From contig CAJBBX010000004.1 of NCBI GenBank assembly GCA_903951425.1, positions 1 to 40,409 of the forward strand: DNA of 40,409 bases. Reading direction: 5' to 3'. Positions 6,385 through 18,438 of the stretch are shown piece after piece. The translations under genes were made by a program, and so were the position numbers. Within the stretch, counting starts at the first letter, position 1; each line of letters starts with the position of its first letter. Under the pieces are notes generated by a model. That model saw nothing but the letters and a program-made list of their open reading frames with translations. It had not been told where the DNA came from and did no database searches. The stretch comes from an uncultured Chthonomonas sp. (GTDB lineage Bacteria; Armatimonadota; Chthonomonadetes; Chthonomonadales; CAJBBX01).

Positions 6385-9234
6385 ATGCAAGAAGAGGTCC
6401 GTACGAAGGGCGCACCACGGTGGCTCAGGGCACTGCGCATCGGGTTCGTGGCAGTCATGGCCTTCGGCCTGCTGTTTGGCTACCAGGTCGTTCGCATCAT
6501 CACGGACTTCCAGTGGTTCGGCGAAGTCGGCTACCAGAGCGTCTTCGGCGGGATACTGGGCGCCAAGCTAACGCTCTTCTTCGGCGTGAGCACCCTCTTC
6601 TTCCTGCTGGTCTACACCAACGTTTGGGCCGCCTTCGCCATGAACGCTTCCGTAGCCAAGCCGCGCCTGTATGATGAGGAGCGTGAACGCTTTGCCCATA
6701 TGGTGCGCTCGGTGGGCCGGTGGGGAAGCCTCGGCATCGTCCTGCTCCTTTCGCTCATGGTGGGCGGCAACGCCTCGACGCACTGGTCCGAATACATGCT
6801 CTTCACCCATCCGGCCTCATTCGGCCGAGTGGACCCGCAGCTGGGCAATGATATCGGCTTCTATGTCTTCCGGCTTCCATTCCTGAACTACCTCCAGGGG
6901 ACGCTGCTCTTTACGCTGGCGGCGGCGGCCATCGGCGCGGCGGCGATCCACTACGGCGAGCGCGCCGTTGACTTCGCGGCGGGCGCTACGCCCACGATTG
7001 CGCCCCACGTGCGGGCGCATGTGCTGGGCCTCCTGGGGGTCGTAGCCGTGGTGGCTGCGTGGGGCAGCCTGCTGGGGCGGTACGACCTCCTCCTCAGCGA
7101 CAATGGCCAGTTTGTTGGCGCGGGCTACACAGACATCCACGCGCGGATGCCCGGCATGGTGATCCAGGCCAGCCTTATGCTGATGGTAGCCGCGCTCTGC
7201 TGGCTTAACACGCGCCTCTGGCGGCCCTTCCTGCCGCCCATCGCGGGCCTCGCGCTCTGGGGCGTCGGCTCCGCCCTGGCGCTGGGCGTCTACCCCGGCT
7301 TCGTGCAGCGTTTCCGTGTGGTTCCGAACCAGTACAACGCCGAGGAGCCCTACATCAAGCGCGATATCGAGGCCACGCGCCAGGCCTACGGGCTGACCGC
7401 CGTGCGAACGGTGCCGCTGGATACGCCTGCTCCGCTCGTGACGTCCGACCTGGCCAAGGAGCACCTGACGACTTCGAATATCCGCTTGTGGGACTGGCCG
7501 CAACTCGGCCGTGTCTACCAGGCCAAGCAGGCCCTGAAGACCTACTATCGCTTCGGGCTCCCGCCCGGCGTCCCCTCCAGCACGGGGCCATACAACATCG
7601 ACGTGGACCGGTACGTCATCAACGGCGAGGAGCGGCAGGTGATGCTCGCCCCGCGAGAGATGTTCGTGCCCGGCCTGCCGCAGCAGGCGCAGACGTGGGT
7701 GAACCAGCGGCTCCAGTACACCCACGGCTACGGCGTCGTCATGAGCCCCGTCAACCGCGTAGATGCGGACGGCTTGCCCGAGTACTTCCTGGGTCAGATT
7801 CCTGTTCGATCGACGCGGCCGGAGCTCAAGGTCGACCAGCCCGGCATCTACTACGGCGAGTTGCAGAACGAGTACATTTTCGTCAACACCAAGCAGAATG
7901 AGCTCCACTATCCCGGTCCCGAGCGCAACGAAGAGACGCGCTACGCCGGGAAGGGCGGCGTACGGGTCGGCGGTTTCATGGGACGGACGGCCTGGTCCAT
8001 GCGGCTCGGCGACTTCAACCTGATGCTCGCGCCGGACCTCACGTCGGAGAGCCGGGTCCTCATTCGCCGCAATATCCGCGAGCGGGCCCAGACTGTGGCG
8101 CCGTTCCTGAACTGGGACAACGATCCCTACCTTGTGGTGGCCGACGGCCGTCTCACCTGGATGATGGACGCCTACACGGTCTCGGACCGGTACCCCTACG
8201 CGCGGCCCTACTCGGTGGGCACCGGATACGACGGCGTGAGCCAGCAGTTCAACTACATCCGCAATTCCGTGAAGGCCACCATCGACGCCTACGACGGCAC
8301 GCTACGGTTCTATGTCTCCGACACGGCCGACCCCGTACTGCGGGCCTGGTCGCGCATCTTCCCGGGCCTCATGAAGCCCCTCAGCCAGATGCCGCAGTCG
8401 CTACAGTCGCACATCCGCTACCCGGAGGACCTGTTCCGGGTGCAGCGTGATATCTATACGATTTACCATATCACAAGTCCGAAGATTTACTACGGTAAAG
8501 AGGATCAGTGGGATGTGCCGTCGGATCCCACCGACGCCGGTGAAGAGGGAAGCTCGGCCGCAGGACGCATGGCGCCCTACTACGTTAACATGCGGCAAGC
8601 GGGCGAGAAGGGCACCGAGTTCCTCCTGATGACGCCTTTCACACCCAAGGCGGTGCAGAACCTGGCCGCCTGGATGTGTGCGCGGTGCGACCCGGAGCAC
8701 TACGGCGAGCTGGTCTGCTATCGGTTCCCCAAGGGGAGCAACGTGAACGGGCCGCAGCAAATCATGGCTCAGGTTAACTCGCAGCCCGAGATCAGCCGTA
8801 CCGTCTCGCTACTGGATCAGCGGGGCTCGCGCGTCATCTGGGGCAACCTGCTGGTGATCCCTATGGGTAAGGCTCTGGTCTACGCGATCCCGCTCTACGT
8901 CCAGGCCAGCGCCAGCACTTCGGCGCAGATCCCCGAGATCAGCCAGGTGATCCTCGCCTGCGGTGACCGTGTCGTCATGCGGCCGACGCTCGACGAGGCG
9001 CTCCAGGCGCTCGTCCAGGGCCGCACTGAGGCGGTGGCCGAGGCCGGCTCGGAGCCGGCGCGGGATGGGGCGGCGCGCTCCACGTCCGCGGCTACGCCTG
9101 TGGCCGACGCGCTCACACGTGCCCAAGCGGCGCTACGCCGGGCTCAGGAGAGCAAGAAGGGCTACGACGCCGCACTGGAGGAGCTGTCACGAGCCCTGAC
9201 GGAGTTGCAGGGGTCGAGGCCGGCCCCAGACTAG
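6385..9234 (+). CDS. UPF0182 family large membrane protein
   Basis: A 949-residue protein. The first third carries about seven hydrophobic segments (residues about 17-38, 60-80, 110-130, 165-185, 212-230, 255-275, 285-305). The rest is a large, probably extracytoplasmic domain with family-typical stretches such as VPNQYNAEEPYIKRDIEATR, WDWPQLGRVYQ, GVVMSPVN and NSVKATIDAYDGTLRFYV. The C-terminus is a short helical segment (RAQAALRRAQ ... ALEELSRALTEL). UPF0182 proteins have no established function. GGGAG precedes ATG 6385 by six bases. The stop codon overlaps the stop of the convergent gene in the tetranucleotide CTAG at 9231-9234, leaving no space for an intergenic terminator. Confidence 0.95.
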   Translation: MQEEVRTKGAPRWLRALRIGFVAVMAFGLLFGYQVVRIITDFQWFGEVGYQSVFGGILGAKLTLFFGVSTLFFLLVYTNVWAAFAMNASVAKPRLYDEERERFAHMVRSVGRWGSLGIVLLLSLMVGGNASTHWSEYMLFTHPASFGRVDPQLGNDIGFYVFRLPFLNYLQGTLLFTLAAAAIGAAAIHYGERAVDFAAGATPTIAPHVRAHVLGLLGVVAVVAAWGSLLGRYDLLLSDNGQFVGAGYTDIHARMPGMVIQASLMLMVAALCWLNTRLWRPFLPPIAGLALWGVGSALALGVYPGFVQRFRVVPNQYNAEEPYIKRDIEATRQAYGLTAVRTVPLDTPAPLVTSDLAKEHLTTSNIRLWDWPQLGRVYQAKQALKTYYRFGLPPGVPSSTGPYNIDVDRYVINGEERQVMLAPREMFVPGLPQQAQTWVNQRLQYTHGYGVVMSPVNRVDADGLPEYFLGQIPVRSTRPELKVDQPGIYYGELQNEYIFVNTKQNELHYPGPERNEETRYAGKGGVRVGGFMGRTAWSMRLGDFNLMLAPDLTSESRVLIRRNIRERAQTVAPFLNWDNDPYLVVADGRLTWMMDAYTVSDRYPYARPYSVGTGYDGVSQQFNYIRNSVKATIDAYDGTLRFYVSDTADPVLRAWSRIFPGLMKPLSQMPQSLQSHIRYPEDLFRVQRDIYTIYHITSPKIYYGKEDQWDVPSDPTDAGEEGSSAAGRMAPYYVNMRQAGEKGTEFLLMTPFTPKAVQNLAAWMCARCDPEHYGELVCYRFPKGSNVNGPQQIMAQVNSQPEISRTVSLLDQRGSRVIWGNLLVIPMGKALVYAIPLYVQASASTSAQIPEISQVILACGDRVVMRPTLDEALQALVQGRTEAVAEAGSEPARDGAARSTSAATPVADALTRAQAALRRAQESKKGYDAALEELSRALTELQGSRPAPD

Positions 9235-10703
9235 GGAGTTGCTGACTGGATCAGATGCGCACCGAACAGGAACCGTGAGATCCCGGGTTCGACCGAAGGC
9301 TTCGGGAAGTTGCGCGCCCACCAGACGAAGGGCGACAGCGCATCGCAGACGGTATCGGCGGCCAGGATGGCGCCGGGGAACCGGGTGAGGAGGGCCCTGC
9401 ACAGGGCCCCCGCTGCCCGGAAGGCTTTGTTGCCGCCGCGCTCGGGCCTGCCGTCGTTGGGCATGGCGTCCAAGCCGACCAGCATCAGGGCATCAAACGG
9501 CGCATCGGCCGTAGCGCCCTCCGCCGCCGCGCTCAGGTGCGCCCGCCACTCGGGCGATGCCAGGCTCACGGCAGGCGGCTCCAGCGCCGCGTCTGCGTCT
9601 GGCCGCAGCACCAGTTGCCGCCTCCACCGTTCGGCATCGCCGGGAGCGGTCACGTCCAGGTCCAGCATCACGCGGCAGCCCGCCTGCTTGGCTCGACGCG
9701 CGGCGGCGGTCAGTGCGGCGTCCGGGGCGCCGGAGCGGGGTAGTGCGCCCACGAAGCGCACCAGCGTGGAATCTGCGACGTCGGTGTCCGCTGGAGGCTG
9801 CCAGTTCGCGGCCTTCGCTCCGGCGACCTCAACGACGCGGTCGATCTGCGTCACCCAACCACGGCCGCCTCGCGTGGGCACGGGCGGGTGCCGCTCATAC
9901 ATAAGGTCCCGATACTGCTGGGCCGGGCCGCGCCAGTCTCCCTTGTAGCAGTCGATACGCCATGTGACGGCTGGCATATGGTCGCAAGTTAGCCACGGCG
10001 CGGGCGCCTCGGTGGTCAGCTGCAGTTCGGCCTTGGAGCCTTGCGGCGTCACGGTGAGCGTCCGCCTCTCCCCGCCGTCCGGCGAGTAGGCGACGATACC
10101 CCCTTTGGCGCCCTGCCAGACGAAGAAGGGCGCCTGCCACTCACTCGGGTATGGGAGCGTGCGGGCCTGCCGCAGCGCCTTTGGCTTGATCACCTGATCT
10201 CCCGTGGCCGGCAGCAGCAGGCGGCCCACAGTGGCATCGAGGTTGCGGATGCCGAACTGCAGCCCGCGCAACCCCTCCTCGCGGGCGTCGGCCCACATCT
10301 CCACGATGACCTCGTCCGTGTCGCTGTCCACGGAGACGCTGAGGACGGCCGTGCGGGCCAGGTCCTTCAGCGTTAGCATGGCCGCGTTGGGGTTCTTCCC
10401 CGTGCGCCACTCGGTGCTGCGCAGCGCCGGCCACGAGCCATCGCCCGCCTGCAGCCGCGTCAGGGGCGTCCGGGGCCGCGCGCCGTACATGGGCCGTTCG
10501 TCTGAAGCGATGTTGCGCAGCTCAGCCAAGTCGGGTCCGAAGAAGGTGGCCTCCATGCGATTGGTGGTGACGTGCAGGCGCTCGCCTTCGATCCGCACGT
10601 CCGCCCGGCTCATGTTTGCCGCCAGCAGCGCCGCAAGCGCGGCAACCCGCCTCCAATGCCTTTGACCGCCTCGTAGACCCAAGGTAGAATGCTCCCCGAA
10701 CAC
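9231..10703 (-). CDS. Secreted protein of unknown function, possibly carbohydrate-active
   Basis: A protein of about 490 residues with an arginine-rich then hydrophobic N-terminus (RHWRRVAALAALLAANMSRA), likely a signal peptide. The first half is beta-rich (LHVTTNRMEATFFGPDLAEL; VSVDSDTDEVIVEMWAD), as in the N-terminal domain of some glycoside hydrolases. The second half has alternating strands and helices (TLVRFVGALP; GCRVMLDLDVTAP; PFDALMLVGLDAMPNDG) suggestive of a TIM-like barrel. I do not recognise a catalytic pair and cannot name a family. The start is uncertain: GTG 10703 has GGGAGG five bases upstream, GTG 10709 is almost on top of that site, and TTG 10682 has GGGGAG nine bases upstream. 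The gene is divergent from the next one, with only 26 bp between starts. Confidence 0.75.
   Translation of the reverse strand: MFGEHSTLGLRGGQRHWRRVAALAALLAANMSRADVRIEGERLHVTTNRMEATFFGPDLAELRNIASDERPMYGARPRTPLTRLQAGDGSWPALRSTEWRTGKNPNAAMLTLKDLARTAVLSVSVDSDTDEVIVEMWADAREEGLRGLQFGIRNLDATVGRLLLPATGDQVIKPKALRQARTLPYPSEWQAPFFVWQGAKGGIVAYSPDGGERRTLTVTPQGSKAELQLTTEAPAPWLTCDHMPAVTWRIDCYKGDWRGPAQQYRDLMYERHPPVPTRGGRGWVTQIDRVVEVAGAKAANWQPPADTDVADSTLVRFVGALPRSGAPDAALTAAARRAKQAGCRVMLDLDVTAPGDAERWRRQLVLRPDADAALEPPAVSLASPEWRAHLSAAAEGATADAPFDALMLVGLDAMPNDGRPERGGNKAFRAAGALCRALLTRFPGAILAADTVCDALSPFVWWARNFPKPSVEPGISRFLFGAHLIQSATP
10662..10690 (+). promoter_or_regulatory. Sigma-70-like promoter for the DnaA_N-like gene
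   Basis: TTGACC (10662-10667), 17-bp spacer, TAGAAT (10685-10690), then about 39 bp to ATG 10730. The promoter lies inside the N-terminal codons of the divergent secreted-protein gene if that gene starts at a GTG. Confidence 0.65.
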
Positions 10704-10708
10704 CGTCA

Positions 10709-10720
10709 CCTCCCGGAGGG
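10709..10720. promoter_or_regulatory. Shared, back-to-back ribosome binding sites
   Basis: The segment CCTCCCGGAGGG has CCTCC/GGAGG arms. Read plus, GGAGGG (10715-10720) is nine bases before ATG 10730. Read minus, GGGAGG (10714-10709) is five bases before GTG 10703. The two Shine-Dalgarno sites are adjacent and complementary. Confidence 0.5.
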
Positions 10721-10729
10721 GCCCTCAGA

Positions 10730-11389
10730 ATGGCAACCACAACGTCCGATCCCGTCGCGCTCTGGCCGCGGGCTGTAAACCTCGTGAAGGACAAGACCAC
10801 CAGCCGCTCGTTCTGGCAGGCGCTGGAGAAGACCGTGGCGCTGGCGGTGCTCGACGACACCCTGATTGTGGGCCTCAATGCAAGATACGCCAATGAGGCG
10901 GGCGCGATCAACACGTCGCTCCACAAGACGGCCATCCTTCGCGCCTTGGCGGAGGTGAATGGTCGGCAAATTGGCTTCCGGCTCATCGAGGGCGACACGG
11001 CCGCCGACTGGGCCATGACGCAGGATCGCGATGCGCGCGTCGCGGCCATGCGAGCCGCCACCTACAGCCGCAAGGACCAGGCCGCCGCCGACGCCCAGGG
11101 CTGGGACGGCGTCTACGAGCAGGTGGCCCGCGCCTGGTCGGCCGCCACACTTCGGGCGTTGCCGCAGACCAAGGCGCGCTACCTCAGCGATATGCTCTAT
11201 GTACTCCTCGATGCCATTGACCAGTACTCGCCTGAAACGCCCGATGAGGCCACCGAGCGCCACATCGCCCGGGTGATCGATCGCATCGCCACCAACTCCG
11301 AGGTTCCTGCGACGCTGGTGGCGCTGGAGGTGGAGCGCCTGCGGGCGTGGCGCGCTTCCACTCCGCAAGCCGCAGCTCAGTCGGAGTAG
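10730..11389 (+). CDS. Small protein with DnaA domain I-like N-terminus
   Basis: A 219-residue protein. Residues about 10-88 resemble the N-terminal domain of the replication initiator DnaA: LWPRAVNLVKDKTTSRSFW, then a hydrophobic strand DDTLIVGLNARYANE, a helix, and a closing strand EVNGRQIGFRLIEGD. This matches the DnaA pattern of a tryptophan after leucine, a helix ending in F, 'L..DTL.I..PN.F', and a final strand 'I.F.V'. The AAA ATPase and the DNA-binding domain IV are absent. Instead residues 89-219 are predicted helical (DARVAAMRAATYSRKDQAA; ARYLSDMLYVLLDAIDQY). Domain I in DnaA is for protein contacts, so an adaptor role is possible. The resemblance is judged by eye. It is convergent with folC, overlapping by 13 bp. 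Confidence 0.75.
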   Translation: MATTTSDPVALWPRAVNLVKDKTTSRSFWQALEKTVALAVLDDTLIVGLNARYANEAGAINTSLHKTAILRALAEVNGRQIGFRLIEGDTAADWAMTQDRDARVAAMRAATYSRKDQAAADAQGWDGVYEQVARAWSAATLRALPQTKARYLSDMLYVLLDAIDQYSPETPDEATERHIARVIDRIATNSEVPATLVALEVERLRAWRASTPQAAAQSE

Positions 11390-12690
11390 CCCAGCCTCTT
11401 CGGGTCGGCCTCGCCGACGACGTAGAACGAGCCGGTGACCAGCACCAGGTCGCCGGCTCCCGCATCGCCCAGCGCCTGGCGCACGGATTGCTCCACGGGT
11501 GTCACTGTGCGTACGTCGGCGCAGATGCGCCGCGCTGCCGCGGCCACCTCGTCGGCCGGCAGCGCGCGCCGCCAGCCTGCCTGAGTGGCGATGATGCGCG
11601 AGGCCATGCCTGCGAGCGGCGCCAGGAAGGCAGCCGGATCGTGCCCGAGCGACACTCCCACGACCAGCACCAGGCGCTTGAAGGGCAACGCCCTCACCGA
11701 CCGCGCAAGCGCTTCCGCCGAGACGCGGTTGTGCGCGCCGTCAAGCACCAGCGTGGGATCGCACCCGTGGATCTCCATGCGGCCGGGTAGCCGCGTGGTC
11801 CTGAGCCCCTCCGCCAGGGCGTCGGACGCCACCTCCCGGCCCAGACCCTCCAGCAGGATCTCCGCGGCCGTCGCCGCGCAGGCCGCGTTGCGCGCCTGGT
11901 GGTCGCCTCGCAGGCCAAGCTCCAGGTCTGTGTAGCGGCGTCGCGGCGTCGCGATCCAGACCCTCGGCGACGCTCCCCCGAACCATGCCCGCCTCACCGA
12001 GGGCGCCTCGCCGCCCGTCCCCGGCGCCACGGTGACCACGGGGGCGGCCAACTCCCGGGCGCGGCGGCGGATGACGCTGAGCGCGGTGGGCCGTCCCGGC
12101 GATGTCACAACGGGCGTGCCCGGCTTGATGATGCCCGCCTTCTCCCCGGCGATCAGCGCGATGGTGTCGCCCAGCACGTCGCAGTGGTCGTAGTCGATGG
12201 TGGTGATGACGCAGACGCGGGGCTCAAGCACGTTGGTGGCGTCCAGGCGTCCGCCCAGGCCCACCTCCACGACCGAGGCCTCGACCCGCGACGTGCGAAA
12301 GGCCTCGAAGGCCAGAGCCGTCTTCACCTCGAACTCGGTGCAAGGCCCGTCCGGTCCATCGGCCATCGCCTCCGCGGCAGCGGCCACGCGGTCGAGGCAC
12401 TGCGCGAAGAGGGGCTTCGGCGCCAGCTCGTCGTCGATCTGGACCCGTTCCCGGATGTCATACACGTAGGGCGAAAGGTACGCCCCGGCCCTGACGCCGT
12501 GCTGTTTCAGTATCGAGGCTATCATGGCGGTCACCGATCCCTTGCCCTTGGTGCCCGCCACATGCGCGGCCGGGCACGAGCGTTCAGGGTGGTCCAGCGC
12601 GTCGAGCAACGCACGGAATCGGTCCAGCCCAAGGCGAATGCCAAGCGGCTGCAGGTTGTTGAGGTACGCCACCGCCTGATCGAAATCCAT
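11377..12690 (-). CDS. folC: Folylpolyglutamate synthase / dihydrofolate synthase
   Basis: A 437-residue Mur-ligase-fold enzyme of folate metabolism that adds glutamate to folates and, in bifunctional members, makes dihydrofolate from dihydropteroate. The ATP loop is HVAGTKGKGSVTAM (residues about 44-57). Further family segments are SPYVYDIRERVQIDDE, EVGLGGRLDATNV, TTIDYDHCDVLGDT, IAGEKAGIIKPGTP and VLDGAHN. I chose ATG 12690 (MDFDQAVAYLNNL), because it matches the family N-terminus; the frame stays open far upstream but that part lies in the promoter region of the divergent gene. The ribosome site is weak. Cytoplasmic. Confidence 0.95.
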   Translation of the reverse strand: MDFDQAVAYLNNLQPLGIRLGLDRFRALLDALDHPERSCPAAHVAGTKGKGSVTAMIASILKQHGVRAGAYLSPYVYDIRERVQIDDELAPKPLFAQCLDRVAAAAEAMADGPDGPCTEFEVKTALAFEAFRTSRVEASVVEVGLGGRLDATNVLEPRVCVITTIDYDHCDVLGDTIALIAGEKAGIIKPGTPVVTSPGRPTALSVIRRRARELAAPVVTVAPGTGGEAPSVRRAWFGGASPRVWIATPRRRYTDLELGLRGDHQARNAACAATAAEILLEGLGREVASDALAEGLRTTRLPGRMEIHGCDPTLVLDGAHNRVSAEALARSVRALPFKRLVLVVGVSLGHDPAAFLAPLAGMASRIIATQAGWRRALPADEVAAAARRICADVRTVTPVEQSVRQALGDAGAGDLVLVTGSFYVVGEADPKRLGYSD

Positions 12691-12735
12691 GCGACCCAAG
12701 CCCCGTGTGTTGCCGCGATAGGTCGCGGTGCGTCT

Positions 12736-12741
12736 ATTGTA
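12736..12741 (-). promoter_or_regulatory. Possible -10 box for folC
   Basis: On the minus strand TACAAT lies about 46 bp before the folC start. No clear -35 is visible at 16-18 bp, so this is weak. Confidence 0.25.
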
Positions 12742-12780
12742 CAGCAGTGGATCATGGCAGGCGCCCCTGGGGTTCGCCGG

Positions 12781-12810
12781 TTGACTCGCCATACCTCCAG
12801 ACGCTATACT
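12781..12810 (+). promoter_or_regulatory. Sigma-70-like promoter for the NlpC/P60 gene
   Basis: TTGACT (12781-12786), 18-bp spacer, TATACT (12805-12810). It points at the gene starting at 12905, leaving a leader of about 88 nt. Confidence 0.65.
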
Positions 12811-12904
12811 GCGCCGACAAGGCAGGGGCCGATGGTCACTGCTGCGCCATTCCGGTACGATCTTTCGCGAGTGTGCCGACACAACGCCACTGAAGGTAGG
12901 GTAG

Positions 12905-13885
12905 ATGGTTCCATCCAAACTTCGCTGGGCGCTCCTGTGCGTCGCGGCTACTTACGGAGCGGCCATGCCCGCCATGGCCTCCAAGACGATCACAACGAAG
13001 AGGGGCGACACGCTCCACGGGCTCGCCAGGAAGTACGGCGTTTGGCCCATTGATATCGCCAAGGCGAACAACCTCCCCGCGGGTTCGAACATCAAGGATG
13101 GGGTGCGCCTGACGATCCCTGATCCCCCTGCAACCGTGTGGATTCGCCCGACACTCGATAGGCTCTCCGTTGTCAACAGCGACCGCATCATGGTTCGCCT
13201 CGGCCCGGGCTCGCAGTATCGGCGCACCACGTTGCTCGATAGCGGTTCGGTCGTCCGCGTAACGGCCAAGCAGGGCGTCTGGTGTCAGGTCTCGGCCGGG
13301 CCGGAGATCAAGGGCTGGATCCGCGGCGACCTGCTGTCGGCCCCGAGCGGCTCCCAACTGGCTGCCGCCCGCGCCAGGGCCGCGGCCAAATCCGGTGAGA
13401 CGCGCCGCGTGGCGTCGGCCACTTCGACCCGCTCGAAGCGCTCCCCAAGCCGGACCCACGTGGCGAAGGCTCGCGTTCGAAGCTATGCCGTCTCCGGCAG
13501 GGCCCCGGCGGTGCGACGCACACGCGACGTCGTACGAACAGCGCTGGCCTACCGTGGTGCGCCATACCGCTACGGCGGCGCCGGGCGGCGCGGGTTCGAC
13601 TGCTCAGGCTTCACCAGCCATGTCTACGCGGGCAAGGGCGTTGCCCTCCCGCACTCCTCGGCCGCTCAGTTCTCCAAGGGGCAGCGCGTCACCAAGGGCA
13701 CGATGAAGCCCGGCGACCTTGTCTTTTTTGGGCGCGGTCGGCGTGGCATCAACCATGTGGGCATCTACATGGGCGGCGATCGGTTCGTTCACGCGGCGCG
13801 GCCGGGCAAGGGCGTGCGGGTGGATAGCCTTAGCTCGTCGTACTACAAGTCGAACTTCAAGGGCGCGCGCAGAATCGCCCGTTAG
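12905..13885 (+). CDS. LysM-SH3-NlpC/P60 cell-wall hydrolase
   Basis: A 326-residue secreted peptidoglycan hydrolase. A signal peptide (residues 1-25, WALLCVAATYGAAMPAMA) is followed by a LysM domain (about 27-72, TITTKRGDTLHGLARKYGV ... LTIPD), an SH3-like domain (about 85-142, VRLGPGSQYRRTTLL), and a basic Ser/Ala/Arg linker (about 145-205). The NlpC/P60 domain follows (about 208-326) with the catalytic cysteine C233 in FDCSGF, a histidine in GINHVGIYMGG and a third polar position in FVHAARPG. LysM binds glycan and NlpC/P60 enzymes cut stem peptides, usually at D-Glu-diamino acid bonds; the exact bond here is inferred. It has its own promoter. It is followed after 64 bp by a tRNA gene that has a separate promoter. 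Confidence 0.95.
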   Translation: MVPSKLRWALLCVAATYGAAMPAMASKTITTKRGDTLHGLARKYGVWPIDIAKANNLPAGSNIKDGVRLTIPDPPATVWIRPTLDRLSVVNSDRIMVRLGPGSQYRRTTLLDSGSVVRVTAKQGVWCQVSAGPEIKGWIRGDLLSAPSGSQLAAARARAAAKSGETRRVASATSTRSKRSPSRTHVAKARVRSYAVSGRAPAVRRTRDVVRTALAYRGAPYRYGGAGRRGFDCSGFTSHVYAGKGVALPHSSAAQFSKGQRVTKGTMKPGDLVFFGRGRRGINHVGIYMGGDRFVHAARPGKGVRVDSLSSSYYKSNFKGARRIAR

Positions 13886-14344: not shown

Positions 14345-15358
14345 ATGGCAGTGAAGGTAGGCATCAACGGGTTCGGGCGCATCGGTCGGCTCAGCCTCCG
14401 GGCGATCCTCGAGGGGTACCCGAACGACATCGAGGTCGTGGCGCTCAACGATCTGACCGACGCCAAGACCAACGCGCACCTCTTCAAGTACGACACCAAC
14501 TACGGCATCTACAAGGGCACCGTTGAGGTTGACGGCAACGATATCATCATCGACGGCAAGCGCATCGTCGTCTACAAAGAGCGTGACCCGGGCGCCATCG
14601 CGTGGCAGAACCAGGGCGTCGAGATCGTTCTCGAGAGCACCGGGCTCTTCACCGCCGCCGACAAGGCCAAGGCCCACCTGAACGCTTCGACTGTCAAGAA
14701 GGTCATCATCTCCGCTCCCGCGAAGGGCGAGGATGCCACCATCGTCCTCGGCGTCAACGATGAGGTCTACACCCCCGCGGCGAGGATCATCTCCAACGCC
14801 TCCTGCACCACCAACTGCCTGGCGCCCGTCGCCAAGACCATCAACGATACCTTCGGCATCGTCTGCGGCATGATGACCACCGTTCATGCCTACACGAACG
14901 ACCAGAAGGTCGCCGACCAGGCCCACAGCGACCTCCGCCGCGCCCGCGCTGCCGCCGAGAGCATCATCCCGACATCCACCGGGGCCGCCAAGGCCATCGG
15001 CGTCGTGGTGCCCGCCCTGAACGGCAAGCTCAACGGCATGGCCCTCCGCGTCCCGACGCCCACCGTCTCCCTGGTTGACCTCGTGCTGACCACCGAGAAG
15101 CCGGTGACCAAGGAGACCGTGAACGCCGCGTTGCGCGCTTCTGCCGCCGGCTCCATGAAGGGCTATCTGGTGGTCGAGGATGCCCCGCTGGTCTCTACCG
15201 ACTTCGTCGGCAACCCGGCCTCGTCGATCGTCGACGCCTCCGAGACGATGGTCATGGGCGAGAACATGGTGAAGATCATGGCCTGGTACGACAACGAGTG
15301 GGGCTACTCGTCCCGCGTCGCCGACCTGATCGTCTTCATGGTTGAGAAGGGCCTGTAG
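14345..15358 (+). CDS. gap: Glyceraldehyde-3-phosphate dehydrogenase
   Basis: A 337-residue GAPDH of usual length. It catalyses oxidation and phosphorylation of glyceraldehyde 3-phosphate to 1,3-bisphosphoglycerate. The N-terminal NAD-binding fold begins [12 protein letters not shown]. The catalytic cysteine is C154 in [12 protein letters not shown]. Further signatures are [46 protein letters not shown] and [15 protein letters not shown] preference is expected from the fold but not proven. GGAAGGAG lies nine bases before ATG 14345. It is the first gene of a long plus-strand run and has its own promoter and structured leader. Confidence 0.98.
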
Positions 15359-15426
15359 GCTCCGTTTCGGGTTTGCCCTCCGGGTAGCGCCCGGCGGCCA
15401 ATAGTTGGCCAGGGCTTCAAGCAGGA

Positions 15427-15460
15427 GCACGGGGGGCACGTTGCGGCGTGCCCCCCGTGC
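15427..15460 (+). other. Perfect 14-bp hairpin between gap and pgk
   Basis: GCACGGGGGGCACG (15427-15440) pairs with CGTGCCCCCCGTGC (15447-15460) around a 6-nt loop. No T tract follows (TGCGTTATC), so it is not a standard intrinsic terminator. It may act in mRNA processing, 3'-end protection of gap mRNA, or partial termination. Confidence 0.6.
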
Positions 15461-15521
15461 TGCGTTATCGGCCGGATATCCGTCGTTTGCGGCGGAAAGT
15501 GTAAGGAACAGGTAAGCGAGC

Positions 15522-16724
15522 GTGAAACTTAACAAGAAGACCATCGAGGACGTGGATGTTCGCGGCAAGCGCGTACTCGTCCGTGTCGACTTCAACGTGC
15601 CACAGGACCCCGCCGATCCCAACATCATCACCGATGATCGGCGCGTCCGCGAGGCCCTGCCCACCATCCAGCGGCTCATGGCCGAGGGCGGGCGCGTGGT
15701 CCTCGTCTCGCACCTGGGCAAGCCCAAGGGCGGCCCGTCGGCCAAGCTGAGCCTTGCCCCTGTGGCCAAGCTCCTCTCGGGCCTGCTGGGCGTCCCGGTC
15801 GCCTTCGCGATGGACTGCGTCGGGGAGCCCGCCGAGGCCGTGGTTGCAGGCCTCACCGACGGCTCCGTGGCCCTGCTCGAGAACCTTCGCTTCCATCCCG
15901 AGGAGGAGGCCAACGATCCGACCTTCGCCAAGGCGCTGGCGGGGCTGGCCGAGGTCTACGTCAACGACGCCTTCGGCACCGCCCACAGGGCGCACGCCTC
16001 CACCGAGGGCGTTACCCGCTACCTGCCGGCCTACGCGGGCTTCCTGATGCGCAAGGAGATCGAGTACCTCAGTGGCGCGCTTGAGGACCCCAAGCGTCCC
16101 TTCGTCGCGGTCCTGGGAGGCGCCAAGGTAAAGTCCAAGATCCCCGTGATCCAGCAGCTTCTGTGCAAGGTCGACAAACTCATCGTCGGCGGTGGCATGT
16201 CCTACACCTTCGCCAAGGCGGTCGGCCATGAGATCGGCAACTCGCTTCTGGACGAGTCCTCGCTGGAGTACTGCCGCAAGCTCCGAGCCGAGGTCGGGGA
16301 CAAGCTACTCCTGCCCACCGACGTGGTCGTGGTGGACGGCAACCCGTTCGAGGTCGACCCCGCCACGCTGAACGCCAGGATGGTGCCGGTCAGCGAGATC
16401 CCGGTGGGCTGGGAAGGCGCCGATATCGGCGTGGAGACCCGCGCCAGTTTCTCCGATGCCATCCGCGGCGCAGGTACCGTAGTCTGGAACGGCCCCATGG
16501 GCGTGGCTGAGTATGAGCGCTTCGCCGCGGGCACCCGCGCTGTAGCTGAGGCGATGGCGGAGTCGAGCGCGGTGACCATCGTGGGCGGAGGCGATTCCGC
16601 GGCCGCCGTGCAGCAACTGGGCTTTGCCAACAAGATGACGCACATCTCTACCGGCGGCGGCGCCTCGTTGGAATTGCTCGAAGGCAAGGAGCTGCCCGGC
16701 GTGGTGGCGCTACTCGACAAGTAA
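15522..16724 (+). CDS. pgk: Phosphoglycerate kinase
   Basis: A 400-residue enzyme that transfers phosphate from 1,3-bisphosphoglycerate to ADP. Signatures are [13 protein letters not shown] near the N-terminus, [84 protein letters not shown] and the C-terminal nucleotide loop [10 protein letters not shown]...[16 protein letters not shown]. Length is typical. The start is GTG 15522, which gives the normal family N-terminus; the ribosome site is not strong. It follows gap after 163 bp containing a strong hairpin, so its level relative to gap may be set by that structure. Confidence 0.97.
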
Positions 16725-16757
16725 CGCATTCGGGTTCGCCCGGAAGGGACGGCCGAC

Positions 16758-17597
16758 GTGAAGCTAGGAGTGATGCTGGCCGGTCGCCGTGCGGAGGACA
16801 TCTCCAAGCGGTTGGCTCAGGCCCGGGAAGCAGGGTTCTCCCTGTGCCAACTGAACCTCCAGCAAGAGGGCCTGTCGCGCGCCGATCTGGTGGAGATCGC
16901 GGATGCCTTGCTCGAGTACGGCATCCGGCCCGTCAGCATCGGCTGCTACGTGAACCCGCTGGCGCCGAACCGTCCTTCATACCTGGGGGCGACCCGGGGC
17001 GACCTTGAGACCGCGCTGCACGGGCTCGACATCCTGGGGGCCCGCCGCGTCGTGCTGCTCAGCGGCAGCCGCGGCGACGCGTTCTACGACGCCGAGCCGT
17101 GGAACGAGACGGATGAGGCGCTTGCGGATCTCTCGAGCTTCATCACGAGCGTCGTAAAGGAGACGAAGGCCAGGAACTACCTGCTGGTCCTGGAGCCCTG
17201 GTATTGCCATGTGCTCTATTCGGTGGAGCGCATCCTGCAGTTCCATGACGGTCTGCATCCGGATGTCGCCCGCCATGTGCGCTACGTTCTGGACGCCGTG
17301 AACCTGTTGAGCCCTGAGCGCTATGAAGAGCGCGATACGGTCGCTGCGTCGGCGTGCCGCGCCCTGGGCGCCGGCGCCGGCGTGGTGCATCTCAAGGATA
17401 TCGTGATGCCGCCGGACGGCGAGCACGCCATGCCGCCGCCCGGACTGGGGCGCCTGGACTACGCGGCCTATGTGGCAGCGCTGCACGAGTATGCCGCCGA
17501 CGAGACGCCCGCCATTGTGCGGAATGTGCCCGCCCAGGAGATGGCGCAGGTCCGCGATATCCTCCTCCGTATGTCGGATCGATGGCGGCTCGCATAG
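16758..17597 (+). CDS. Sugar phosphate isomerase/epimerase-like TIM-barrel protein
   Basis: A 279-residue protein with the AP endonuclease 2-like TIM-barrel fold shared by xylose isomerase-type sugar isomerases and epimerases. It starts KLGVMLAGRR and shows the alternating barrel segments GFSLCQLNLQQ, RPVSIGCYVNPLAP, GARRVVLLSGSRGD, YLLVLEPWYCHVLYS, VRYVLDAVNLL, GVVHLKDIVMPPDG and the C-terminal LDYAAYVAALHEY. E in LEPW, D in LDAVN and H in VHLKD are the expected metal-ligand positions. The substrate is unknown. Start GTG 16758 follows GGAAGGGA. It sits between pgk and tpiA, which suggests a sugar-phosphate substrate, but this is only inference. Confidence 0.85.
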   Translation: MKLGVMLAGRRAEDISKRLAQAREAGFSLCQLNLQQEGLSRADLVEIADALLEYGIRPVSIGCYVNPLAPNRPSYLGATRGDLETALHGLDILGARRVVLLSGSRGDAFYDAEPWNETDEALADLSSFITSVVKETKARNYLLVLEPWYCHVLYSVERILQFHDGLHPDVARHVRYVLDAVNLLSPERYEERDTVAASACRALGAGAGVVHLKDIVMPPDGEHAMPPPGLGRLDYAAYVAALHEYAADETPAIVRNVPAQEMAQVRDILLRMSDRWRLA

Positions 17598-17634
17598 AGC
17601 CTGAACCAAGCAACAAGCTAAGGAGAACTCATCT

Positions 17635-18438
17635 GTGAGCCGAAAACTGATCATCGCCGGCAACTGGAAGATGCACAACACCACGGCCCAGGCCCGCGCC
17701 CTCATCGCCGACCTGGCGCCTCTGGTAGCCGGCGCGGCCGCCGTGGACGTGGTGGTCTGCCCCACCTATACAGCGCTGGCGGCGGCGTCTGACGCCCTGC
17801 AGGGCACCGGCATCCTGCTGGGCGCGCAGGATGTCTTCTGGAAGGACAAGGGCGCCTACACCAGCCGGATCTCGTCCTCCATGCTCCTCGACCTGGGTGT
17901 GACCTACGTCGTCATCGGCCACTCCGAGTGCCGCGGCCGGTTCGGCGTGCCGGAGCCGGACTTCGATGAGGCGGTATTGGCTCACTTCGGTGATAGCGAT
18001 GCCACGGTGAACCGCAAGCTCAAGGCCGCGCTGGCGGCCGGCCTCAAGCCCATTGTTTGCGTTGGCGAGACGCTCTCGGAGCGGCGCCAGGGCGAGGCCG
18101 ATGCCGTTGTGGCGTCCCAGGTCCGAGGCGCCCTCGTGGGCATCGATGCCGAAGCCGTACCCGGCCTGGTGCTGGCCTATGAGCCCGTGTGGGCCATCGG
18201 CACCGGCGAGGTCTGCGGTTCCGATGAAGCCGACCGCATCTGCGGCGTCGCCCGCGCCACCGTGGCCGAGCTCTACGGCGCCGCAGCGGCAGAGGCAGTC
18301 CGTGTGCAGTACGGCGGCTCCGTGAAGCCCGACAATGCGGTCGAACTGCTCGGCAAGCCCAATATCGACGGCGCACTGGTTGGCGGCGCCGCGCTGAAGG
18401 CCGCCGACTTCGCGGCCATCGTCAACGCGGGCGCCTAG
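17635..18438 (+). CDS. tpiA: Triose-phosphate isomerase
   Basis: A 267-residue TPI that interconverts dihydroxyacetone phosphate and glyceraldehyde 3-phosphate. The active-site residues are present: K12 in GNWKMH, H96 in IGHSE and E183 in AYEPVWAIGTG. The phosphate loop VQYGGSVKPDNA and the LVGGAALKA end are normal. It is longer than the usual 250 residues because of an insertion of about 15 residues right after H96-SE (GRFGVPEPDFDEAVLAHF) before the normal DATVNRK helix. Start GTG 17635 follows AAGGAGAA at good distance. It completes the gap-pgk-tpi glycolytic set, 37 bp after the TIM-barrel gene. Confidence 0.97.
   Translation: MSRKLIIAGNWKMHNTTAQARALIADLAPLVAGAAAVDVVVCPTYTALAAASDALQGTGILLGAQDVFWKDKGAYTSRISSSMLLDLGVTYVVIGHSECRGRFGVPEPDFDEAVLAHFGDSDATVNRKLKAALAAGLKPIVCVGETLSERRQGEADAVVASQVRGALVGIDAEAVPGLVLAYEPVWAIGTGEVCGSDEADRICGVARATVAELYGAAAAEAVRVQYGGSVKPDNAVELLGKPNIDGALVGGAALKAADFAAIVNAGA

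Follow-up and report, generated by a model that had tools for sequence, protein, structure and literature searches.

The contact pieces that wire bacterial replication are DnaA domain I, tau domain V, and DciA, and they vary most between phyla. DnaA domain I of Bacillus subtilis (PMC4285326) holds SirA through the core residues T26, W27, and F49 and the rim residues W53 and E25. The same face of E. coli DnaA (E21, W25, F46, and W50) is described in PMC5448010 as serving both DnaB and DiaA, and W6 of helix 1 is given there as a dimer residue.

We analyzed a gene in a 40,409-nucleotide stretch of DNA from an uncultured Chthonomonas sp. (the window, which here means that whole stretch). The N-terminal domain of its product resembles DnaA domain I in fold, size, strand order, and the conserved helix-1 Trp, whereas DnaA domains II-IV are missing and a C-terminal helical bundle stands in their place. 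The gene is a member of an unnamed, nearly phylum-wide family, not an oddity of a single genome. Searches of the literature, which reached few subscription journals, found no description of this family. We propose, with a probability of roughly 0.4, that the gene belongs to the Armatimonadota set of an undescribed family of two-domain adaptors, whose partner, as far as we can infer the function, would probably be a replication or repair protein. If this is true, it would be a fourth protein on the same piece, one that nearly all genomes of the phylum carry once and that no curated model picks up at its cut-off. The replication or repair wiring of Armatimonadota would then include a part that is absent from the E. 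coli and B. subtilis models.

Gene and predicted domains

The gene occupies positions 10730-11389 of the window on the forward strand, stop codon included, and encodes 219 aa from an ATG start. The GGAGG at 10715-10719, on the same strand just 5' of the start, is the likely ribosome-binding site. The protein is 94-95% identical to its copies in two congeneric genomes, the dN/dS values against these congeners are 0.06 and 0.08, and third codon positions take 47 of the 64 base differences in one comparison and 45 of 64 in the other, indicating a real coding gene under strong purifying selection. Its 5' neighbor is an opposite-strand gene (9231-10709), a divergently oriented 492-residue frame without a Pfam match that is kept in the congeners. 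Its 3' neighbor, a folC-like gene of the Mur-ligase type (11377-12918), is also on the opposite strand, and the 3' ends of the two genes overlap by 13 bases. The window also contains a 949-residue UPF0182 protein (6385-9231), which spans the full Pfam model and whose function is not known, and a gapA-pgk-tpi glycolysis cluster (14345-18435) in which pgk and tpi flank a TIM-barrel gene resembling xylose isomerase.

The AlphaFold2 model, built with 81 relatives, has a mean pLDDT of 89.4 and a pTM of only 0.51, which leaves the packing of the domains unsure. For residues 8-88 (10751-10993, forward strand), the prediction is confident and shows the KH-like DnaA domain I fold. The secondary structure elements at residues 8-87 run a-a-b-b-a-a-b, which matches solved members of the superfamily that unites DnaA domain I with tau domain V. 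In the Foldseek search, the first-ranked chain was DnaA domain I (4tps_D; E 5.8e-4, TM 0.78 by target length), and the solved E. coli tau C-terminal domain appeared among the further rows. The VIA comparison also placed B. subtilis DnaA domain I (4TPS) at the top, with Z 11.5 and an rmsd of 2.8 over 83 residues. Its next row was domain I of H. pylori DnaA (Z 8.4). DciA (7ykm) came close behind with Z 8.1, as did further KH-like proteins such as RbfA and eS7.

The domain is followed by a family signature, I-E-G-x-T-x-x-D-W, at the junction with a long linker helix (residues 86-94; 10985-11011, forward strand), which is visible as conserved columns in three family alignments. The linker helix is modeled at residues 91-121 (11000-11092, forward strand), and its end is poorly predicted. 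Four more helices, at residues 125-138, 145-166, 173-190, and 194-210, are predicted to form a conserved four-helix bundle (residues 125-210; 11102-11359, forward strand), as judged from alignment motifs and a model of the bundle alone. The 219-residue protein contains neither the AAA+ ATPase domain III nor the DNA-binding domain IV of DnaA, and the clamp-loader AAA+ domain of DnaX is likewise absent. The preliminary description had read an N-terminal domain of the DnaA_N type from this frame, with about 130 helical residues replacing the ATPase and DNA-binding parts. Both points hold in the model, where the linker and the four helices fill residues 91-210 and the domain takes the KH-like fold of domain I instead of another one.

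Comparison with DnaA, DnaX, and DciA

The window protein alone matched no Pfam family even at E 10, and its NCBIfam search gave only two meaningless matches (E 0.07-0.08). The homology to the DnaA/tau-type domains emerges only once relatives are included. In hhalign comparisons, the family profile matched the phylum's own DnaA domain I with P = 8.4e-12 and the phylum's tau domain V with P = 2.2e-11, against P values of 0.05-0.5 for unrelated controls. One control, 'aN', did match the family profile, because two of its rows are short DnaA frames which still hold domain I. Against all PDB chains, the best match of the family profile was DnaA domain I (E 0.018).

The two homologous domains are nearly tied when members are taken one by one, with the DnaA profile better in 42 and the DnaX profile better in 39 of the 81 members. 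The curated libraries lean toward tau for the N-terminal domain. The gamma/tau models of NCBIfam match up to 14 of the 81 members, with a best E of 8.7e-10 and in every case at the C-terminal end of DnaX, and Pfam DnaX_C (PF20964) matches seven (best E 8.2e-6). The NCBIfam DnaA models match two to three members (best E 4.9e-4), and Pfam DnaA_N (PF11638) matches eight with a best E of 0.0039, which is below its cut-off, and leaves the window protein unmatched. Given the tie between DnaA and DnaX and the curated lean to tau, the N-terminal domain is a separate branch, the third one next to DnaA domain I and tau domain V, and not a copy from DnaA. The earlier label of a stand-alone DnaA domain I is right about the superfamily and goes too far in implying a DnaA-specific origin. 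Likewise, the profile link to DnaA that it anticipated emerges with relatives included but not from the curated DnaA_N model alone.

The lean to tau raises the possibility that the protein is a detached module like tau domain V, which would bind DNA polymerase III alpha or another tau client and modulate polymerase coupling. The curated gamma/tau and DnaX_C matches, which are the best that the domain obtains, and the tau structure among the Foldseek rows are in line with such a module. We consider it unlikely, although it is the strongest of the alternatives. The family lacks the AAA+ clamp-loader part of DnaX, and the genomes retain a normal DnaX, complete with domain V, so that nothing is missing. 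DnaX was found in 29 of 30 genomes, the C-terminal tails that were read show domain V, and the DnaX of the window's own genome (G000:C101) ends in its own domain V. Moreover, the profiles from within the phylum prefer DnaX no more than DnaA, and in structure tau is outranked by DnaA domain I, the best match.

We compared the partner-contact residues in a joint alignment of 81 family members with 25 DnaA and 21 DnaX rows from the phylum; one of 26 DnaA and four of 25 DnaX sequences had been left out before counting, as they scored too low with the family profile to be trimmed. At the position of B. subtilis W27, 22 of the 25 DnaA rows have Trp, Phe, or Tyr, and 74 of the 81 family members have Ala. 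The W53 position is Trp in 20 of 25 DnaA rows and mostly His or Tyr in the family. The F49 position is Phe in 21 of 25 DnaA rows and rarely aromatic in the family, with a possible alignment shift of one residue at this site. The helix 2 and helix 3 contact residues of DnaA are therefore not those of the family. In return, the position of B. subtilis E25, an exposed site in DnaA, has become a new helix-2 Trp in 58 of 81 members. The partner-facing surface of DnaA has not been copied, and the family conserves another one. A conserved face of its own, together with the loss of the DnaA face, speaks against competition for the partners of DnaA and for a partner of its own.

The preliminary description had suggested that a free copy of domain I could compete for the contact hub of DnaA, and the residue comparison does not support this idea. 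In its wider form, the protein would compete for the helicase or regulators, or would cap DnaA through the dimer face of helix 1, and so set the frequency of initiation. The fold, the homology, and the dimer-residue Trp (B. subtilis Trp8, E. coli Trp6), which is conserved in 80 of 81 members, could be taken in its favor. However, 25 of 25 DnaA and 19 of 21 DnaX rows share this Trp, which makes it a mark of the superfamily and not of dimerization with DnaA. With the hub residues replaced and no linkage with dnaA or dciA seen, we regard a competitor of DnaA as improbable.

DciA (DUF721, PF05258), the helicase operator, shares with the family the layout of a small KH-like domain with an extension, and its structure 7ykm superposes with an rmsd of 2.2 over 73 residues. 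In contrast, a sequence link to DciA was not found by hhalign (P 0.01, from only 5 DciA rows), and the PF05258 model has no match at the locus of the window gene. DciA is separately present in 95 of 101 genomes by PF05258 search, including a single match at C63:69588 in the window's own genome, where a true DnaA is also found elsewhere. The DnaA_N model was matched in 26 of 30 genomes. We also asked whether DciA, tau domain V, or DnaA domain I is missing and the family substitutes for it, and rejected this, because the genomes keep an ordinary DnaA, a DnaX with domain V, and DciA, and nothing is replaced. As a separate observation, dciA lies no more than about 3-7 kb from dnaA in many genomes of the phylum (G018, G034, G037, G038, G039, G052, G057, G083, G087, and G097), and the two are on different contigs in the window's genome.

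Distribution, descent, and gene neighborhood

We sampled 101 Armatimonadota genomes, 74 of which reach a completeness of 90% or more with no more than 5% contamination. A single-sequence search found the family in 91 of the 101, at one place per genome; double matches in G030, G031, and G099 are pieces of a single gene. Among the 74 good genomes, 71 carry the gene and three (G044, G055, and G082) do not, so the family is not strictly essential in the phylum. A profile search of the ten misses added a full gene in G079 and a fragment in G036, and the profile matches in G082 and the second one in G036 are DnaA itself. In the gene tree, which holds 64 of the 81 aligned members after 17 near-duplicates were dropped, members mostly group by host family. 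Seven more members, found by profile only, are outside the main alignment and the tree. Across almost the entire phylum, this gene is kept in single copy and inherited vertically.

A wider scan of genome contigs returned 21 loci in records labeled Chthonomonas, Chthonomonadales, Armatimonadetes, or just 'bacterium', with patterns that were tuned to near relatives and that distant members in other phyla could escape. A phage origin was considered and set aside, since the nine pattern matches among viral contigs, when checked, gave no confirmed relative.

No operon conserved across the phylum was found around the family gene, and the largest neighbor cluster comprises 10 loci on the opposite strand. 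In a scan of 81 neighbor loci for five genes, several same-strand neighbors are DNA-repair genes: upstream, RecO at 4 of 81 loci (L058, L065, L071, and L075; two host families) and MrfA-MrfB at 3 of 81 (L051, L057, and L074; two families), and downstream, MutS2 at 1 of 81 (L067). These repair linkages occur in separate lineages and are suggestive. At 8 of 81 loci, which belong to three host families (L040, L043, L059, L080, L081, L082, L084, and L085), an RNase E/G gene precedes the family gene on the same strand, and at five of these the two genes are no more than 60 bases apart; this linkage points away from repair. A metallo-beta-lactamase-type hydrolase is found 3' of the family gene in six loci of one host family, and the remaining neighbors are metabolic.

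The RNase E/G linkage, together with RbfA and eS7 among the structural rows, would fit an adaptor on the RNA side, in which the KH-like domain works with RNase E/G in RNA processing. We rate this about as low as competition with DnaA, because the sequence homology leads to DnaA and DnaX and not to RNA-binding KH proteins, and the linkage is absent at the other loci. In one host family, the next gene after the family gene (L085:5354-6028; the +1 gene in L080, L081, and L084) encodes a small cysteine-rich protein, and the copy that was searched has no Pfam match.

Helical bundle, J-domain fusions, and a proposed adaptor model

The linker and the C-terminal bundle are as strongly conserved as the N-terminal domain, and the bundle is therefore not filler. 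The most constant motifs of this helical part are R-x-L-P-Q-x-K-A-R-Y and D-E-x-x-E-R-x-L-A-R-x-x-D-R-I-A. Modeled alone, the segment gave a confident four-helix bundle with pLDDT 89.9 and pTM 0.81. A Foldseek search of this model against solved structures returned nothing better than E 0.95, and the sequence comparison with PDB entries gave E 0.27 or worse throughout. When the bundle alone was compared by VIA, the best natural proteins were four DnaG primase entries with Z 6.1-7.3, values that any helical bundle may attain, and families unlisted by VIA-align are not thereby excluded. The best of these rows, 5guj (Z 7.3, rmsd 2.3 over 68), covers DnaG residues 366-435, and the similarity lies at the helical end of the DnaG polymerase domain (the Pfam DnaB_bind region). 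The profile support for DnaG is weak in comparison: P is 0.003-0.011 over 24-34 columns against the phylum's DnaG profile, about tied with the 0.025 of unrelated DnaX helices. None of 300 column shuffles reached the real DnaG score (22.2; best shuffle 21.3), with the reservation that shuffling destroys helix periodicity. The likeness to DnaG is a suggestive lead, not above what other helices give.

One clade of the family differs from the rest in carrying a J domain before the family core (L049, L051, L055, L057, L074, and L076). These members come from four host families and form 6 of the 64 tree rows, and the fusion is a single change in the tree. The three loci with MrfA-MrfB neighbors belong to this clade. 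Compared with described J-domain proteins (DnaJ class III), this clade has Pfam DnaJ in front of the core, whereas a J domain with HPD is absent from the window protein and most other members. J domains act on whatever their neighboring domain binds, and the family core is therefore probably a target-binding module.

In the adaptor model that we prefer, the KH-like domain, which comes from a protein-binding superfamily, would provide the first contact surface, and the four-helix bundle would provide a second, family-specific one. Through the bundle and the conserved surface of helix 2, which includes Trp29, the protein would most likely bind a component of the machinery for chromosome replication or repair. 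The protein, which has no enzyme domain, would tether or present the bound component. In the J-fused clade, the N-terminal J domain would call DnaK to whatever the core binds. This clade offers a direct handle, since the client of its proteins should reveal which partner the family as a whole has. The predicted fold and the homology with the two contact domains of DnaA and tau, the near phylum-wide single-copy distribution with a tree by host family, the J fusion, and the repair neighbors at some loci speak for the adaptor model. The lack of a conserved operon, the metabolic or RNase E/G identity of the other neighbors, and the three good genomes without the gene count against it.

A more specific proposal is that Armatimonadota have an adaptor dedicated to the replisome or initiator and not described elsewhere, which combines the DnaA/tau-type domain with a primase-like bundle in one protein, could bridge the initiator, the clamp loader, and the primase or helicase, and in the J-fused clade would aim DnaK at the replication machinery. 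This would be a chromosomal counterpart of the use that lambda P and plasmid initiators make of DnaJ/DnaK. We view such a bridge as a speculative and rather improbable elaboration of the adaptor model.

The least probable reading places the whole family in proteostasis, as a type III J-protein family (by ancestry or through its relatives) that selects DnaK clients with the DnaA-like domain as a generic client binder; the HPD motif is intact in five of the six fused proteins, but the fusion is confined to one small clade, most members are J-less, and L076 has lost the motif. In the fused proteins, of which five were scanned with Pfam and the J domain of L051 was read by eye, the DnaJ matches have E values of about 1e-20 to 1e-22 except that of L076 (8e-13).
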